32,165 bases of DNA from the NCBI GenBank assembly GCA_903858815.1, contig CAIOKE010000132.1, positions 1-32,165 of the forward strand. The letters are read 5' to 3'. Below, one piece after another: positions 1,153 to 24,159 of this stretch. The notes under the pieces are model-generated. The model was given only the letters and a program-made list of their open reading frames with translations. It was not told the origin of the DNA and ran no database searches. The first letter of the stretch is position 1; the number at the start of each line of letters is the position of its first letter. Position numbers and translations under genes: made by a program. Source of the DNA: an uncultured Planctomycetaceae bacterium. Lineage in GTDB: Bacteria; Planctomycetota; Planctomycetia; Planctomycetales; Planctomycetaceae.

Positions 1153-1956
1153 TTGTCGTTGCTGCAAAAAAATATCCCACTGTATTTGCTGGAAGAAGAG
1201 CGTGAGGGGTTGCGTGCTGCTGGCCGCTTCAATGCCTCGCTGATGGATTTTCTGCGTCCTTACGTGGTCGAAGGGACATCCACGGACAAGCTCGACAAAC
1301 TGGCTCTCACTTATACTCGCGATCACGGGCACATACCGGCCTGCCTGAACTACAAGGGTTATCCGAAGACCATTTGCACCAGCGTCAACGAAGTTGTGTG
1401 CCATGGCATCCCCAATTCGACTCCGCTGAAAAACGGGGATATTGTGAATGTGGACATCACCACAATCGTGAACGGTTGGTATGGTGACCAGTCGGAAACC
1501 TTTTTGATTGGTGAGGTGACGCCGTCAGCCCGTCGTCTGGTGCAAACCACCTTCGACTCGCTGTACCTTGGCATACAGGCTTTGCGTCCGGGTTGCATGG
1601 TGACGGAGATTGGTCGCACGATCCAGAAATTCGCTGCCGCTGCTGGATATTCAGTGGTGCGTGAATATCAGGGTCATGGGATTGGTCGCGACTTCCATCA
1701 GGAACCGGGAATACCGCATTTCCCCCAGCCTTCCTCAAACCGCGATCTGCTGCGTCCGGGCACGTGTTTTACGATCGAACCGATGTTGAATATCGGGACC
1801 TGGGAAACTCGCCTGGACAAACGCGACAAGTGGACCGTGCGAACTCGGGACAACGCACTGTCTGCGCAATTTGAGCATACGATACTGATGACTGAAACGG
1901 GCCCTGAGATTCTGACACTGACGAAGAACGGCCCTCAGCAGGGGCATCAGTTCTGA
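1153..1956 (+). CDS. map: Methionine aminopeptidase, type I
   Basis: Cytosolic metalloenzyme that removes the initiator methionine from nascent proteins. The 267-residue product has the whole pita-bread fold and is close to the usual 250-290 residues. The five metal ligands are visible: D101 (in NVDIT), D112 (in YGDQSETF), H175 (in [12 protein letters not shown]), E209 (in TIEPM) and E241 (in FEHTIL). H84 (VCHGIP) matches the conserved substrate-side histidine. There is no N-terminal zinc-finger or SH3-binding extension, so this is the simple bacterial form. The start is TTG at 1153, chosen because AGGGTG lies 7 bases upstream and the next methionine (residue 31) would cut into the fold. The stop TGA at 1954 abuts the ATG of the next gene, so the two are probably co-transcribed from the promoter at 1079 and translationally coupled. 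Confidence 0.95.
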
Positions 1957-3726
1957 ATGGCAACAGATCCCGACAATCTGGAAAGCTGTGAACAGCGAAT
2001 CGGCTATCGGTTCACTGACAGATCGCTGCTGCGCCGCTGCCTGACACACAGTTCGTCGGCCGAGACACGTCTGGATTCCAATGAGCGTCTGGAATTTCTG
2101 GGGGACGCGGTTCTTGGTCTGGTGATCTGCGAGCATCTGTTTCAGCTGTACCCGGATCAGCGGGAGGGTCAGTTGACGCAGATGAAGTCGTGGCTGGTCA
2201 GTCGTCAGACCTGTGCTCGAGTTGCTCGTGCGCTGGATCTTGAGCCGCTGATTTTTGTGGGTCGTGGACTGCAGCAGATACCGGAATCGATTCTGTCGGC
2301 TGTCATCGAGTCGCTGATTGCCGGAATCTACTTCGACGGTGGGCTGGTGGCTGCGCGGACCTTCATTGTGATGGCATTTGGTGAAGAGTTGCGGCTGTGT
2401 CGTCCGCTGGACTCAGAGAACTACAAAAGCCAGCTGCAGGAATACACTCAGCGGGAACTCGCCTGTACTCCGGAGTACTTCGTGCAGGAAGAATCCGGGC
2501 CCGACCATGCTCGTGAGTTCCTCGTGGCAGCGCGTGTTGGTGAGCAGACCTTCCCCAGCGGTCGCGGTCGCAGTAAGAAGGAAGCCGAGCAGCAGGCTGC
2601 CCGGAATGCTCTGCTGGCTCTGACTGATCCAGCTCCCGGAAGCCTGCCGACTGACGCACTGCATGATGAACTGCCGGAAGTCAGCGGCGACATTCGTCTG
2701 CGGTTGCTCCCGGAATCCTCCCCCAAACTCTCAGAATCTGCAGGACTCAGTCACTTGCCAAGCACTTCAACAGAAGCCTCTGTACTGCTGCGACCAGCCT
2801 CGGCTGAGCTGCGATTTCTGCCTGAGGGTCCTTATTCGCTGGGTGCTGATCGAGCCAGCTGGGTGGCAATCCAGCACGGTGCCGCTGCACGAACAGGTTC
2901 CCTCAACATCCTTGATCTCAGCACTGGTCAGAATCAGTCGTGGAAACTGCCCGGTCGTCCGGGATTTGCCTTCCCCACCAGCCTGAACGGAGTGTTTGTT
3001 GTCGGAGCGGAGCGGCAAGTGGGACTGTTCGACACGACCAGCGGAAACTGGTCTGTCCTGTTCGAGGGTATCGAGCAGGGTGTGGACAGCACTGTGATCA
3101 ACGATGCCGTGATCTGGCAGGACTGCCTGATTTTCGGCTGTAAGTACTACCCGACCTGTGATCAGCCAACGGGTGGCCTGTATCTGTGGCGGCAGGCAGA
3201 TCATCAGCTGTTCAAACTGCTCGACAATCAGAAATGTTCGAATGGAAAGGCCGTCATCACGGACTCGGCCGGAGAATTGTGGCTGTACGACATTGATTCT
3301 CCGACGAAGCAGATCGTGCGATATCCGCTGGACCCGGTCGCTGGTCGCCTTGATATCTCACGGCGGGAAGTGGTTGTGGATCTGAATCCGGAGGAGGTCT
3401 ATCCAGACGGCATGATCCTGACTCCCGATCACAGCAGTCTGATCGTGGCTCTGTATGACCCGGGTGATCCGTCGTGTGGCGCAGCACGACAGTATTCGCT
3501 GACCACCGGAACCCTGGAAGCGGTGTGGACCTGCCCCGGTTCGCCTCGAGTCACCTGCCCGCAGCTGGTGCTTCACGAAGGACGAGTGCGACTGCTGCTG
3601 ACAACAGCTGTCGAACACATGACTGTCGAGCAGCAACAGCAGCATCCGAATGCCGGCTGTCTGTTTATCGCCGACACTGCGTTCACATCACTGGGTGATC
3701 AGCCGGTATTCAGGCTTCAATCATAG
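1957..3726 (+). CDS. rnc: Ribonuclease III fused to an SMP-30/gluconolactonase-like beta-propeller
   Basis: The 589-residue product is more than twice the usual 220-250 for bacterial RNase III, which cleaves double-stranded RNA in rRNA and mRNA processing. Residues 1-150 are the nuclease domain, with signature ERLEFLGDAVL; acidic residues E43, E46, D50 and E118 are present, but the position of E. coli D114 is A115. Residues 155-222 are a double-stranded RNA-binding domain ending GRGRSKKEAEQQAA. After a linker (about 223-285) the rest reads as a six-bladed SMP-30/gluconolactonase-type propeller, with candidate metal ligands E290 (EGP), N382 (IND), N429 (SNG) and D484 (YPDG), the pattern of that lactonase family. 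The frame is open throughout. The gene starts on the base after the map stop. Its last 17 bases overlap the convergent VOC gene. The role of the propeller is unknown; a lactonase or sugar-acid activity is only inferred from the fold. Confidence 0.9.
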   Translation: MATDPDNLESCEQRIGYRFTDRSLLRRCLTHSSSAETRLDSNERLEFLGDAVLGLVICEHLFQLYPDQREGQLTQMKSWLVSRQTCARVARALDLEPLIFVGRGLQQIPESILSAVIESLIAGIYFDGGLVAARTFIVMAFGEELRLCRPLDSENYKSQLQEYTQRELACTPEYFVQEESGPDHAREFLVAARVGEQTFPSGRGRSKKEAEQQAARNALLALTDPAPGSLPTDALHDELPEVSGDIRLRLLPESSPKLSESAGLSHLPSTSTEASVLLRPASAELRFLPEGPYSLGADRASWVAIQHGAAARTGSLNILDLSTGQNQSWKLPGRPGFAFPTSLNGVFVVGAERQVGLFDTTSGNWSVLFEGIEQGVDSTVINDAVIWQDCLIFGCKYYPTCDQPTGGLYLWRQADHQLFKLLDNQKCSNGKAVITDSAGELWLYDIDSPTKQIVRYPLDPVAGRLDISRREVVVDLNPEEVYPDGMILTPDHSSLIVALYDPGDPSCGAARQYSLTTGTLEAVWTCPGSPRVTCPQLVLHEGRVRLLLTTAVEHMTVEQQQQHPNAGCLFIADTAFTSLGDQPVFRLQS

Positions 3727-4102
3727 CCGTTTTGCGGCTGACCAGCTGCACGGGCAATCCCCATGGATCCCGCAGCATGGCAAACGTATCACCGGTCGCC
3801 AGCGTGTGCACATCGGCCACAATACTGGCACCGGCTTGTGACAGTCGCCTTACATCCCCGGGTAGATCGCGGGAGAGAAAAGCCAGATGCAGTGCGGGTG
3901 GCTGGATCGTCGGAAAATCGAGCGCCGGAGCATCGGGATTCTGATAGAGCTCGAGCATCACGGTGCCACTGTCATCGGCGAGGAAGTGCACGTATGGAGG
4001 CTCAACAGTCCGCCGCTTCACCTTCATTCCAAGGTGCTCAACATACCAGCGTGCCATATTCAGTGCATCGGGGACATTCAGCGCCAGATGTTCAATCTTC
4101 AT
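3710..4102 (-). CDS. VOC-superfamily (glyoxalase/dioxygenase fold) protein
   Basis: A 130-residue single-module VOC protein. It starts IEHLALNVPD, typical of the first beta-alpha-beta-beta-beta unit, and ends in DPWGLPVQLV, typical of the second. Probable metal ligands are H5, E51 (MLELYQ) and H72 (ALHLAF). At the fourth position, where glyoxalase I usually has Glu, there is Q119, so this need not be a lactoylglutathione lyase; a dioxygenase-like, resistance-like or non-catalytic role is equally possible. It lies 25 bases downstream of the DsbD-like gene on the same strand and is probably its operon partner. Its 3' end overlaps the end of the RNase III fusion gene by 17 bases, tail to tail. 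Confidence 0.88.
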   Translation of the reverse strand: MKIEHLALNVPDALNMARWYVEHLGMKVKRRTVEPPYVHFLADDSGTVMLELYQNPDAPALDFPTIQPPALHLAFLSRDLPGDVRRLSQAGASIVADVHTLATGDTFAMLRDPWGLPVQLVSRKTAMIEA

Positions 4103-4127: not shown

Positions 4128-6695
4128 TCAGGGAGCGGTGGATTCCGCAACAGCAGCAGCGGCCGCGGGCTGCCCGTTGTTCCACGCTTCCAGCCCCTGC
4201 TTAAGAAACGCCAGAAATGCGGCCGGATCATTCAGCTTGATTTCCGTGTATGTCGACAGCACCTGGCCGTCCGGTGAAACAAGTGCGTAGCTGGGCATTG
4301 CGACATCGTTCAGCAGGTTGACGGCAAGGTTTCTGTTGAATTCCAGAATCTGCTCCTGCAACTTTTCATCCGCAACACCCGGCACCATATCGAGGTAGAC
4401 CTGATTGAGCACGAGGTCGGCCATCGCACTGCGAACTTCCCTGCGGGCCAGCACATTTCGCTCCATCGAACGACAGTTCACGCAGTTCACACCGGTGACA
4501 TCCAGCAGTACGGGACGCTTGAGTCGGCTGGCCTGCGCCAGAGCATTCTCGTGCTGCAGCGCCCACGGCTGATCATGGTAGAACACGACATAACCCAAAT
4601 CCGGATGCTGTCCTTTGACAATATCGGGCGGAGCGAATGCTGACACCTGCTGCCAGACAATATCTTCGGGCAGTTCCATGCTGACTGCCCCGGCTGCCAT
4701 CCGTCCGGCCAGCAACAAAAACAGGCCGGCAAAGATCGAACGCGATATGGAAAGTCGTGGACGAGACCCGAATTTCAGCCCCAGCAGGTACAGCCCCGCA
4801 TACGCAGCCAAAGCCACCCACACCCAGAGAAACGTTGAGAATGTGACATAGGTCGGCATCCGTTCCTTCGACAGGCCGATGTCCGCCACGCTCAGAAATT
4901 TCAGGGCAGCTGCCACTTCCACAAGGCCAATCACGAACTTGACATCATTCATCCAGCCGCCACTGCGAGGCAACTTCTTCAGCATCCCGGGGAACATCGC
5001 CAGAATGAAGAACGGAGAAGCAAATGCCGTTGAAAAACCCAGCATTCCAAGTACCGGCCAGAACAAGTCACCACTGGCCGACAGGACCAGCAGCGGCCCC
5101 ACAAATGCAAAGGTGCAGGTAAACGACACCAGTGTAAACGTCAGGGCCATGAAGACGACACCCACAAACCCGCCAGCAGATTCGCGGCTGCTGGTCCAGT
5201 TCAGCATCCAGTACGGCACCGACAATTCAAAGACGCCCAGCAGCATCAGGGCAAATCCCGCAAACACCGCCGTGAAAAACAGATTGAGCCAGGCATTGTT
5301 GGCAAGGTTCGTCAGGCTGGTCCCGCCGAAGATCTTGCTCATGGCAATCCCCAGCACGGTAAAGGCTGCGATGATCGACAGACAGTAGACCAGCGCCAGT
5401 TTCATGGAACTGCCCGCCCGCTTCTCTTCCTGCTTCAGGAAGAAAGCTACAGTCACCGGGATCATCGGAAACACACAGGGGGTGGCCAAAGCCACGAAAC
5501 CGGCACCGATTGCTGTCAACAGAAACTCAAACAGGCCCTCCTGCCGCGTTACCCCGCCCTGCGGACTGGTTGCAGCTGCAGTGACTCCGGAAACCGCTCC
5601 GTCGATCGGCGGGCCACTCCCACGGACCTCCGCCCCGGCTGGTGCACTGTCCCCGGACTGCGATAAGGCCACACGAAACTCCGTTTTTGTGGGCGGTTTG
5701 CAGATGCCATCACGGCAGATCTGAAAACGAATTGCCCCACCGACAGAACCGGTCGCCGCCGTGACCTTCAGTCGACGATTCCAGGAGACCATCCCATAGT
5801 GCACTCGCTGAGTAATATCCGGGAGCGGTTGTTCAACCGTCGCAGCCGTGTCCGCAGTGAACTCGGCCCCCGTAAGTTCCAGCCCCTGCAGATCACGCAG
5901 GTCGATTGTCGTGGGGATTCCCGCCATCTCAGGATTCTGATCAAGGGCGAAGATGTGCCAGCCCTCAGCAACCGTGGTCAAAATCGTGAGGGTCACTTCA
6001 CTGCCGACAGTGGCGGTGGATGGAGTCAGGCTGATTTCGAACTTCACATCGCCGGCCTTCGCCGTTTTCCCGAAACCGATCGGCGGCGTCAAAGTCTGAC
6101 GGGACGTGTCCTGGGCTGCGGTAGACGCAGACGTCGCCGGGGCCGAATCAGTGGTTGCTGAAGCCGCGGACGAACTCTGACTCAGAGTTGCAGAGAATTC
6201 ACGATCGAAGAGCGGAAAACAACCGCGGGAGTTGCAGAACTGTCCGTTGAGTATACCGGAAACCGCAGTCGTTTCAGAAAGCTGACCATTCAGAATCAAC
6301 GTCCACGTCACACGATCATAGAACTTTTCGGTGTTCTGCTGCAGATCCTTATCGAAGCTGCTTTTGGGGGCTCGATCAGCCTGCCACGTCCCGGATTGCT
6401 GCAGACCACCGGTCGTGGTCAGCTTAATGCGAGTGGCTGCCCCGAACGACGGATCCATCGAATAGGTGTGGGCCCCCGGTGGCAGGGTCATGGTAACAGC
6501 CAGACTGGCTGAGCTGTCGGTCAGTTTTGTGAGCGTCGCGGTGACGGCGACATCCGTATCGTCAACGCCAGCCTGATCTCCGAAAATCCCGGGCAGTTCC
6601 AGACTACCGGGGTTCAGATCCTGGGCGATGGCTGCCGGCATCTGGCAGAGGCCGAAGCAGATCAGCAGCAGGGGCAACAGGGCGTTGAACTTCAT
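4128..6695 (-). CDS. dsbD: DsbD-like thiol:disulfide interchange protein
   Basis: Inner-membrane carrier that would pass electrons from cytosolic thioredoxin to envelope thiols. The 855-residue product has a signal peptide (about 1-25). Two tandem DsbD-N/DsbC-like domains follow, at about 30-170 with C154 and C159, and about 200-345 with C327 and C332 (CRDGIC). A polytopic membrane region (about 390-660) carries the paired cysteines C407 (TPCVFPM) and C527 (SFTCTF). A C-terminal thioredoxin-like domain has C738-V-N-C741. All three redox modules therefore keep their cysteine pairs. E. coli DsbD is about 565 residues with a single N-terminal domain, so the extra length here is the duplicated N-domain and linkers. 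The tail after about 830 is Ala-rich. It is the upstream gene of the pair with the VOC protein. Substrates cannot be told from sequence. Confidence 0.92.
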   Translation of the reverse strand: MKFNALLPLLLICFGLCQMPAAIAQDLNPGSLELPGIFGDQAGVDDTDVAVTATLTKLTDSSASLAVTMTLPPGAHTYSMDPSFGAATRIKLTTTGGLQQSGTWQADRAPKSSFDKDLQQNTEKFYDRVTWTLILNGQLSETTAVSGILNGQFCNSRGCFPLFDREFSATLSQSSSAASATTDSAPATSASTAAQDTSRQTLTPPIGFGKTAKAGDVKFEISLTPSTATVGSEVTLTILTTVAEGWHIFALDQNPEMAGIPTTIDLRDLQGLELTGAEFTADTAATVEQPLPDITQRVHYGMVSWNRRLKVTAATGSVGGAIRFQICRDGICKPPTKTEFRVALSQSGDSAPAGAEVRGSGPPIDGAVSGVTAAATSPQGGVTRQEGLFEFLLTAIGAGFVALATPCVFPMIPVTVAFFLKQEEKRAGSSMKLALVYCLSIIAAFTVLGIAMSKIFGGTSLTNLANNAWLNLFFTAVFAGFALMLLGVFELSVPYWMLNWTSSRESAGGFVGVVFMALTFTLVSFTCTFAFVGPLLVLSASGDLFWPVLGMLGFSTAFASPFFILAMFPGMLKKLPRSGGWMNDVKFVIGLVEVAAALKFLSVADIGLSKERMPTYVTFSTFLWVWVALAAYAGLYLLGLKFGSRPRLSISRSIFAGLFLLLAGRMAAGAVSMELPEDIVWQQVSAFAPPDIVKGQHPDLGYVVFYHDQPWALQHENALAQASRLKRPVLLDVTGVNCVNCRSMERNVLARREVRSAMADLVLNQVYLDMVPGVADEKLQEQILEFNRNLAVNLLNDVAMPSYALVSPDGQVLSTYTEIKLNDPAAFLAFLKQGLEAWNNGQPAAAAAVAESTAP

Positions 6696-21871: not shown

Positions 21872-23818
21872 TCAGGACTCTGTCAGTTCCAGATACGGAT
21901 CCAGCCCCATATTCTCGTACTGCTCCAGACGATGCCGCTCCTGCTTCAGCAGGTGTTTGCGCTGCCGACGATGCATCCGCTCCAGAAAATTCTGCACGCG
22001 GCGAAAATATCGCAGCCACGTCCGCCCCAGCTCACCATAACGGTCCGGCAACGCCACTCGGCGCTTACGCTGCACTTCCTTCGGCTCTCGACACCGCAAC
22101 AACTCGTCTTCCATCGACAGAAAGAACTGATACGAACCGGGGTCGCCCTGCCGAGCCGAACGCCCCACCAGTTGCCGGTCAATCCGCTTCGAACTGTGCA
22201 TTTCCGTCGCAATCACATGCAGCCCACCAGCCCGACGCACCTCCTCCTCAAGCAGAATGTCAGTACCGCGACCAGCCATATTCGTGGCAATCGTCACTCG
22301 CCCCGGATGCCCCGCATCCTTCACAATCTCCGCTTCTTGTTCGTGGTAGCGAGCATTCAGAATCTGATGCGGAACAAGGCGATCCTTCAGCAGCAAACCC
22401 AGCGCTTCAGAGGCTTCAACGGAGGGCGTTCCCACAAGGATTGAACGACCGGCCAGACGCAGCTCCTGAATCGTATCCACAATCGCATTTCGCTTGGCGT
22501 CCTGAGTCGTGAAGAAGCGAGGATTCAGCCCGCGCCGAATACACGGACGATTGGTGGGAATGCGAGTCACTTTCAGGCGATAGGTCCGCCGCAGCTCACT
22601 GGCCGCCTGCACCGCTGTTCCCGTCATTCCCGCCAGATGAGTGTACTGCCGGAAAAAACTCTGCACCGTAATTCGCGCTGCCTCTCCGGTCGCTGCAGTA
22701 ATCGGCACCATCTCCTTGGCCTCAATGGCCTGATGCAGCCCATCCTGCCACTTGCGACCGTCCATCACTCGCCCGGTCCCCTCGTCAACAATCACCACCT
22801 TATTATCAACAATCACATAGTCGCGGTCACGCTCAAAGGCATGCTTTGCCGTCAGCGCTTTTTCCACCTGCGAATAAATTCGCTCTGTGTCGATCGAACT
22901 GAGCAGCGACGGTTTGGACATCAGCACCAGCTTGCGACAGCCGGCATCCGTCAGCCACGCATTACGCCGCTCAGGCTCGTACACATAATCAGTTCGCGGC
23001 TGCAGCTGGTGCGCCGCACGGTTGCTCCAGCGAAACAGATTGACCGTCGCCGGATCATTCGGTTGAGTCAGACCGATAATCAACGGCGTTCTCGCTTCAT
23101 CAATCAGAATACTGTCGGCTTCGTCAATCAGAGCAAAGTGATGACCACGCTGCACAGGTTCCTCAGCCCCCTGCAGAGTCCTCAGGAATCGCCGGACGGC
23201 AGGAGCCCCGTCTTCCTGACTGGCCCCCTTGCGCAGACGGTCGCGCAGAAAATCAAAACCCATTTCCTTGGACGTTCCATAGGTAATATCAGCCGCGTAA
23301 TTCTGTCGCCGCTCGTCCGTCTCCATCTTCTCCAGAATCTTACCAACAGTCAGACCCAGCTTTTCATAGACAGCCCCCATGATCTGACAGTCGCGCCCCG
23401 CCAGATAGTCATTCACCGTCACCACATGACAGCCCTGCCCTGACAACGATCGCAGAAAAGCGGGCATCGTCGCTGTCAGAGTCTTGCCCTCACCCGTCTG
23501 CATTTCTGCTATATGCCCCTCAAACATCGCGATCGCCCCCATGATCTGCACAGGGAAATGACGCATATTCAAGGTTCTGGCCGACGCTTCACGCACCAGT
23601 GCATAGGCGTCCGGCAGCAGCTGCTCAAGCGGTATGCCGGCTCGCGCTTCCCAGCGAATCCGCCGCGATTTCGCCAGCAACTCCTCATCGGTCAGACCCG
23701 TCAGCTGGTCGCTCCGCTGAATAATGTCATCCGCCATCGCTCGCCAGCGCGAACGACGAGCAACCTGGGGAATGAACCCGGAACGCACAGCGTGATAGAG
23801 TCGGCTGGAAAAACTCAT
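21872..23818 (-). CDS. Short SecA-like translocase ATPase (SecA2-type paralogue)
   Basis: A 648-residue SecA homologue, much shorter than housekeeping SecA (usually 830-1000 or more). NBD1 has Walker A Q107TGEGKT and a Walker B written DEAD (D232-E-A-D235), where SecA normally has DEVD, followed by SILIDEARTPLIIG. The preprotein-binding region (about 250-350) contains RDYVIVDNKVVIVDEGTGR. NBD2 carries TNMAGRGTDI and GRSARQGDPGS. The helical scaffold begins after YQFFLSMEDELL, but the protein stops about 80 residues later in a basic helix, so the helical wing domain, the two-helix finger region and the zinc-binding C-tail appear to be missing. ATG at 23818 starts MSFSSRLYHAV. No SecY2 or glycosylation genes are nearby. 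It may be an accessory export motor or a SecA remodelled for another role. Confidence 0.88.
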   Translation of the reverse strand: MSFSSRLYHAVRSGFIPQVARRSRWRAMADDIIQRSDQLTGLTDEELLAKSRRIRWEARAGIPLEQLLPDAYALVREASARTLNMRHFPVQIMGAIAMFEGHIAEMQTGEGKTLTATMPAFLRSLSGQGCHVVTVNDYLAGRDCQIMGAVYEKLGLTVGKILEKMETDERRQNYAADITYGTSKEMGFDFLRDRLRKGASQEDGAPAVRRFLRTLQGAEEPVQRGHHFALIDEADSILIDEARTPLIIGLTQPNDPATVNLFRWSNRAAHQLQPRTDYVYEPERRNAWLTDAGCRKLVLMSKPSLLSSIDTERIYSQVEKALTAKHAFERDRDYVIVDNKVVIVDEGTGRVMDGRKWQDGLHQAIEAKEMVPITAATGEAARITVQSFFRQYTHLAGMTGTAVQAASELRRTYRLKVTRIPTNRPCIRRGLNPRFFTTQDAKRNAIVDTIQELRLAGRSILVGTPSVEASEALGLLLKDRLVPHQILNARYHEQEAEIVKDAGHPGRVTIATNMAGRGTDILLEEEVRRAGGLHVIATEMHSSKRIDRQLVGRSARQGDPGSYQFFLSMEDELLRCREPKEVQRKRRVALPDRYGELGRTWLRYFRRVQNFLERMHRRQRKHLLKQERHRLEQYENMGLDPYLELTES

Positions 23819-24159
23819 CGCACACCAGTCTCTGATAAGTCCCCACAGGGAGTTTCTGCTGCAGCCACAGGTCACCGCAGCACAGTGGCAGTATACCGCC
23901 ACAACCCGGCAACGGACAGATCCGCAGCCCACACGCTCGCCACGGCTCGACACTCCCAACGCCACCCCCCGCCTGCAACGGCAGAATTCGCCGAAACACA
24001 TCGTTTTCCCGCAAACAAATCGAACTCACACCGGCTGCGACCTGAGTTGGCGAATTGCCCGCCGATCGTTATTTTGAAGCACCACGGACACGGCCGCATC
24101 ACACAGCGCGTGTTCCAACACTGCTTTCTTCCTTCTGTCCACCAGCCAGATCGCTCGTC
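23819..24159. other. Divergent intergenic region between the SecA-like gene and trpA
   Basis: About 340 bases with no credible gene. A weak hairpin, GTGGC (23885-23889) with GCCAC (23898-23902), is the only structure I noticed. No trp leader peptide with tandem tryptophan codons and no attenuator is visible ahead of trpA. Confidence 0.5.

Follow-up and report, generated by a model that had tools for sequence, protein, structure and literature searches.

In an uncultured Planctomycetaceae bacterium, a ribonuclease III (RNase III) and an SMP-30/gluconolactonase-like propeller are encoded in one uninterrupted frame. The window analysed here is a stretch of 32,165 nt (contig CAIOKE010000132.1, assembly GCA_903858815.1), and the frame occupies positions 1957-3726 (+), specifying 589 aa from an ATG start to a TAG stop. 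RNase III, a textbook enzyme of RNA processing, usually occurs by itself in bacteria. We lean, with some reserve, towards reading the product as a genuine two-domain protein, formed by stop-loss fusion of an rnc-propeller pair into two independent tethered domains whose pairing is selected; this leaning concerns the reading as a whole. The pairing of RNase III with a lactonase-like protein, seen among varying flanking genes and as a fusion in two genera, may hint that RNA processing is connected with a small-molecule enzyme. No publication describing an RNase III-SGL fusion turned up in a literature search that covered subscription papers thinly. The features of the locus are as follows.

1153..1956 (+): map, type I methionyl aminopeptidase (TIGR00500, 283.6 bits)
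1957..3726 (+): fused gene, RNase III - linker - SMP-30/gluconolactonase-like propeller, 589 aa (frame and domain matches)
1990..2616 (+): RNase III, residues 12-220 (TIGR02191)
2269-2271 (+): L105, in the column of E. coli E100
2299-2301 (+): A115, in the column of E. coli D114
2422..2619 (+): double-stranded RNA-binding domain, residues 156-221 (Pfam PF00035)
2632..2760 (+): linker predicted to be disordered, residues 226-268 (AlphaFold pLDDT <50)
2671..2706 (+): conserved element LPEVSGDIRLRL in the RNase III tail, residues 239-250 (comparison of relatives)
2755..2757 (+): TTG codon 267, with AGGA 9 nt upstream; of the two putative internal starts, it has the better position
2818..3609 (+): propeller, SGL match, residues 288-551, with ligands E290, N382, N429 and D484 (PF08450 and alignment)
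3710..4102 (-): glyoxalase-family gene, convergent (PF00903)
4128..6695 (-): DsbD-like thiol:disulfide interchange gene (PF02683), a neighbour in several relatives too

Domains of the fused protein

The curated equivalog score places the N-terminal part in RNase III: TIGR02191 matches residues 12-220 with 207.5 bits, against a cut-off of 166.25. Pfam PF00035 (dsrm) covers residues 156-221, so the C-terminal double-stranded RNA-binding domain (dsRBD) is present. This is the sole TIGR02191 match in the window genome. PF08450 (SGL) matched residues 288-551 with 104.8 bits, above its gathering cut-off of 26.3; the genome has seven SGL matches, the propeller of the fused gene among them. Between the two domains lies a linker of about 45-65 residues, depending on the choice of propeller start. 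The first-pass annotation, made from the letters alone, had described both domains as complete and joined in one frame by a linker of roughly 60 residues; the search of the 589-residue protein, in which RNase III, dsrm and SGL all matched, agrees with that description.

The core acidic residues of RNase III are given in PMC8708148 as E38, E41, D45, E65 and E117 (E. coli numbers). Their counterparts in the fused protein, E43, E46, D50, E70 and E118, were kept in 61 of 61 aligned rows, and the equivalent positions were unchanged in 49 planctomycete RNase IIIs as well. The fused protein thus resembles bacterial RNase III (rnc; TIGR02191) in its nuclease domain, dsRBD and five core acidic residues, and differs in carrying about 370 extra residues and in lacking equivalents of E100 and D114, which the same review lists as further highly conserved acidic residues (PMC8708148). 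L105 and A115 stand in their places. According to a table in that review, E100A and D114A are weak in vitro (PMC8708148), and PMC9291653 describes D114 as not coordinating Mg2+ directly.

Among the 49 planctomycete RNase IIIs sampled, the fused protein included, none had E in the E100 column (L, I or M instead), the placement of which depends on the alignment, and two kept the D114 equivalent. In other phyla, the E100 equivalent was kept in 69 and the D114 equivalent in 66 of 70 RNase IIIs, picked by their similarity to the fused protein. As aligned, the lack of E100 and D114 is a trait of the planctomycete sample and not of the fusion.

The metal site of SMP30 consists of E18, N103, N154 and D204, and Arg101 is its substrate (sugar)-binding residue, as reported in PMC3551927. 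In the propeller alignment, E290, N382, N429 and D484 of the fused protein were each invariant in 55 of 55 rows, which upholds the E/N/N/D ligand pattern that had been noted from the sequence and is also that of the SMP-30/gluconolactonase family (PF08450). In a profile alignment, N382, N429 and D484 fell on the SMP30 motifs RFND, SNG and PDG and were aligned with xylonolactonase motifs too; E290 was matched to E18 through its LPEGP motif because the profile alignment stops short of it, and is a putative counterpart. Since all four positions are invariant, the propeller probably still binds metal and ligand. The position of Arg101 is V380 in the fused protein and I or V in 53 of the 55 rows. 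The substrate is therefore probably unlike that of SMP30, and because Arg101 is absent the propeller was not classed as a gluconolactonase. It is probably a metal-dependent SMP-30-family hydrolase, a lactonase, with a lactone as the presumed substrate.

A propeller-only sequence search against solved structures gave no match at E 0.001, while a profile search did match. Foldseek on the model recovered bacterial RNase III structures (Aquifex, E. coli) and the SGL fold (2GHS, E 1.5e-17; 7PLC, 3.3e-17; also human and mouse SMP30). The closest solved structures were the Agrobacterium regucalcin-like protein 2GHS and Caulobacter xylonolactonase 7PLB/7PLC. The propeller fold is common to the fused protein and the SMP-30/gluconolactonase family, with target-normalised TM scores of 0.85-0.88 to 2GHS, 7PLB, 7PLC and the SMP30 entries, whereas identity in these structure matches was only 18-25%.

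Occurrence among relatives

In genus g1, to which the window belongs, 17 of 18 genomes matched, the exception being G017 (61% complete). Of the 17, eight were fused, two were split by one in-frame TAG, three had the genes adjacent and four had them unlinked. Stops between the domains were checked directly in each linked frame (G008, G009 and G203 have stops). The wider search took in 170 family genomes at E 1e-72 and 397 class genomes at E 1e-3, and among the matches listed linked pairs occurred outside g1 in two more genera, g45 and g47, in the same gene order.

g1, fused, frame checked for stops: G000, G003, G004, G005, G007, G010, G015, G016
g1, same frame with a single TAG between the domains: G008, G009
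g1, adjacent, with a different spacing or frame: G002, G006, G013
g1, rnc and propeller on different contigs: G001, G011, G012, G014
g45: G106 fused; G203, G392, G360 adjacent; G357 cut by contig ends; G275, G315, G351 unlinked
g47: G243, G118 adjacent; G427 adjacent by match coordinates only
g58: G234, G240 unlinked

The fusion is thus present in at least nine genomes, and the propeller gene comes directly after rnc in at least 20 genomes of three genera; both counts are lower bounds from the genomes inspected. The frame of G015 leaves the contig end inside the propeller. G007 and G010, relatives at 79-80% identity, carry the same full-length frame, which makes a sequencing error in the window very unlikely. 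Sequencing or assembly error was rejected as the source of the fusion, the fused frame being open in nine genomes including G106, where it sits on a single 8.92-Mb contig.

A fixed, conserved fusion was likewise rejected, as sister species in g1 are unfused. A short RNase III followed by a separate propeller gene, which the first-pass annotation had named as counting against the fusion, was found in G002, G006, G008, G009 and G013; these unfused close relatives mean that the fusion is variable within g1, not that it is false in the window, where it stands. The survey of planctomycete relatives proposed there returned a fusion that recurs in nine genomes and varies within the genus. The fallback offered at the same time, two proteins sharing one mRNA, fits the adjacent unfused relatives; in the window genome both parts lie in a single open frame. 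Since rnc and propeller are unlinked in four of the 17 g1 genomes and in G275, G315, G351, G234 and G240, the pairing is dispensable. With fused, one-stop-codon, adjacent and unlinked states, g1 offers a natural series for how fusions arise and break.

In G009, the TAG that splits the in-frame pair is followed by CAGCCA, which we take to fit the CARYYA leaky-stop context. That context is known from plant viruses and the rule is eukaryotic, and its occurrence in G009 may be chance.

History of the pair

A joint tree was built from 35 genomes with both proteins, leaving out seven with RNase III only and two with the propeller only. The best tree requires four or more changes in fusion state and five or more in linkage (G357 left out). 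The nine fused rows as one clade were rejected (AU p 3e-8), as were the eight g1 fused rows alone (p 0.004). The eight g1 rows together with split G008, which is sister to G003/G016, were not rejected as a group (p 0.35), so a single g1 fusion that re-split in G008 is possible. For this reason four or more independent fusions are not claimed despite the four state changes. What these trees safely allow is either two or more origins of the fusion, or a single old fusion with many later splits.

A mobile origin was unsupported by plasmid, phage and viral-contig matches. None of the plasmid or phage records with a match (68 and 12 respectively) covered 80% of the query, and viral contigs yielded one relative, matching the RNase III part only. 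In a viral-protein fold search, matches were named ribonuclease III or as assorted propeller proteins and, judged by annotation, none was named both.

Gene neighbourhood

No nucleotide separates the TGA of map (1954-1956) from the ATG of the fused gene, and at its other end the fused gene overlaps the glyoxalase-family gene by 17 nt. The map-rnc order, remarked on in the first-pass annotation, recurs: eight of the linked g1 genomes have map before the pair, and the end of map is found at the contig edge upstream of the pair in G002. Most of these map-flanked genomes continue downstream with glyoxalase and/or DsbD genes in convergent orientation; G008 does not. The pair is flanked in G004 by a PhyH gene upstream and a Zn-peptidase gene downstream; the PhyH flank is found also in G015 and the Zn-peptidase flank in G005, the contigs of which end on the other side. 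Upstream of the pair, five g45/g47 genomes have a divergent gene, and seven genomes without an observed rnc-propeller linkage have a similar one upstream of rnc; a scan of one gene from each set, in G203 and G234 respectively, identified trypsin-PDZ both times. The immediate flanks in G006 and G106 are common to no other genome.

An intact pair between flanks that vary on both sides speaks for a connection of rnc with the propeller gene, but inheritance from a single linked ancestor, with rearrangement around the pair, suffices to explain the differing neighbourhoods. Around standalone propellers, no neighbour family within three genes recurred in more than four of 38 loci, and no pathway was seen.

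Linker and selection

The AlphaFold2 model of the fused protein, based on an alignment of 55 rows (eight fused proteins and 47 propellers from separate genes), had a mean pLDDT of 86.5 and a pTM of 0.58, with residues 226-268 below 50. The structure prediction suggested at the outset thus gives two confident domains joined by a 43-residue tether that is predicted to be disordered. The element LPEVSGDIRLRL has a counterpart in G007 and G010, and a similar element occurs in G003, G008 and G016. This short conserved element after the dsRBD, of which VPESETDGRDVFLSL is the G003 version, lies in the otherwise disordered RNase III tail and is present in split G008 too; it could be a docking motif.

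Across seven pairs of fused genes from three clades, the RNase III part had a dN/dS of 0.028-0.056 and the propeller part one of 0.053-0.101. Both domains are under constraint in the fused genes, and the purifying selection (about 0.03-0.10) that had been put forward as a check is borne out. Linker values were 0.23-0.40 in the five closely related pairs; the comparisons of G000 with G007 and with G010, at a dS near 1, gave 0.59-0.68. Linker length differences within each fused clade are whole codons only.

Random substitution was simulated in 2000 runs per clade, and runs with no more amino-acid changes than observed were counted. For the whole linker there were 90 (G007/G010), 29 (G003/G016) and 325 (G004/G005) such runs of 2000; for the linker tail with the conserved element, in the same order, 35, 11 and 1291; and for the propeller-side linker 886, 504 and 78. 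Whole-linker purifying selection as proof of translation is weakened, because the signal is that of the RNase III tail in two of the three clades. The propeller-side half appears nearly free, not clearly under coding constraint, and the tether is therefore compatible with drift. Because the frame is open, the tether is presumably translated.

Between codons 220 and 285, the fused gene of the window contains neither ATG nor GTG, and its linker has only two TTG codons (250 and 267), the second with AGGA 9 nt upstream. At least one in-frame linker ATG is present in G003, G004, G005, G007, G010, G015 and G016, and none in G000 and G106, in which the former start Met of the propeller is missing. 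Within 20 nt upstream, only one of the linker ATGs listed has a Shine-Dalgarno-like motif (G010, GGAG at 15 nt). GTG 303 of G003 has AGGAG 6 nt upstream.

Proposed mechanism and alternatives

In the mechanism proposed, the stop codon of rnc would have disappeared from a co-directional and probably co-transcribed rnc-propeller pair, the shared transcript being suggested by gene order. The N-terminal part would serve as the cell's only RNase III, dimerising and cutting double-stranded RNA (rRNA precursors, structured mRNAs), the C-terminal part would act as a metal-dependent SMP-30-family hydrolase, probably a lactonase, and a flexible, largely unconstrained tether would join them. With so loose a tether each domain would work alone, and the fusion would mainly fix equal dosage and co-location; selection would keep the pairing and not an allosteric contact. 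The fused chain is presumably made, with both activities kept and the two parts in a common process. A published precedent exists in the Deinococcus Cu/Zn-SOD-SGL propeller fusion, DrSOD, reported to have both activities (PMC12362111). Both proteins fuse an unrelated enzyme to an SMP-30-type propeller; the partner in DrSOD is an SOD, predicted in that report to be periplasmic (PMC12362111), whereas RNase III, the partner here, is presumably cytoplasmic.

The stop codon may instead have been lost almost neutrally, between genes that are neighbours by history and share transcription only, with no functional consequence. The alternation of fused and split states among close species, the nearly free evolution of the propeller-side tether and the genomes with unlinked rnc and propeller all speak for this, but the pair recurs with differing upstream and downstream neighbours, and the fusion is found both in g1 and in G106 of another genus, a single clade being rejected (AU p 3e-8); on this evidence a neutral loss is unlikely, if the first alternative to be weighed. 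A further reading, which we hold to be rather improbable, has the propeller acting as a functional partner to RNase III in planctomycetes, a small-molecule hydrolase or binder that ties metabolism to RNA processing. Selection would then act on the pair as one unit, fusion would have happened repeatedly, and the ligand would perhaps be an RNA- or nucleotide-derived lactone or ester.

One frame could also give two products, the propeller being made for the most part by internal initiation (at TTG 267 here, at an ATG in most of the other fused genomes) or released by proteolysis of the tether. The linker ATGs of seven fused genomes and the AGGA and AGGAG motifs before TTG 267 and GTG 303 are consistent with such starts; against them stand the ATG-free linkers of G000 and G106 and, as a weak argument, the finding that only one listed linker ATG has a Shine-Dalgarno-like motif. 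We hold two products to be improbable. The first-pass annotation had suggested metabolite sensing that controls RNA cleavage, that is, a ligand or metal on the propeller altering the activity of RNase III on RNA. The four invariant ligand positions and the joining of the propeller to RNase III speak for a sensor, yet this suggestion gained no positive support: the 43-residue tether is predicted to be disordered (pTM 0.58), its propeller-side half is little constrained, the sole conserved tether element seen belongs to the RNase III tail and is kept in split G008, and sister species do without the fusion. A sensor is very doubtful.

Other features of the window

Upstream of map, positions 1-842 hold imperfect direct repeats, three copies at a spacing of about 253 nt, containing the 15-mer TGGGGACACACCTGC, which occurs seven times on three contigs of the window genome. 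At 21872-24001 (-), the window encodes a SecA-like protein of 709 aa in which DEAD, cross-linking and P-loop domains were matched; standard SecA is longer.
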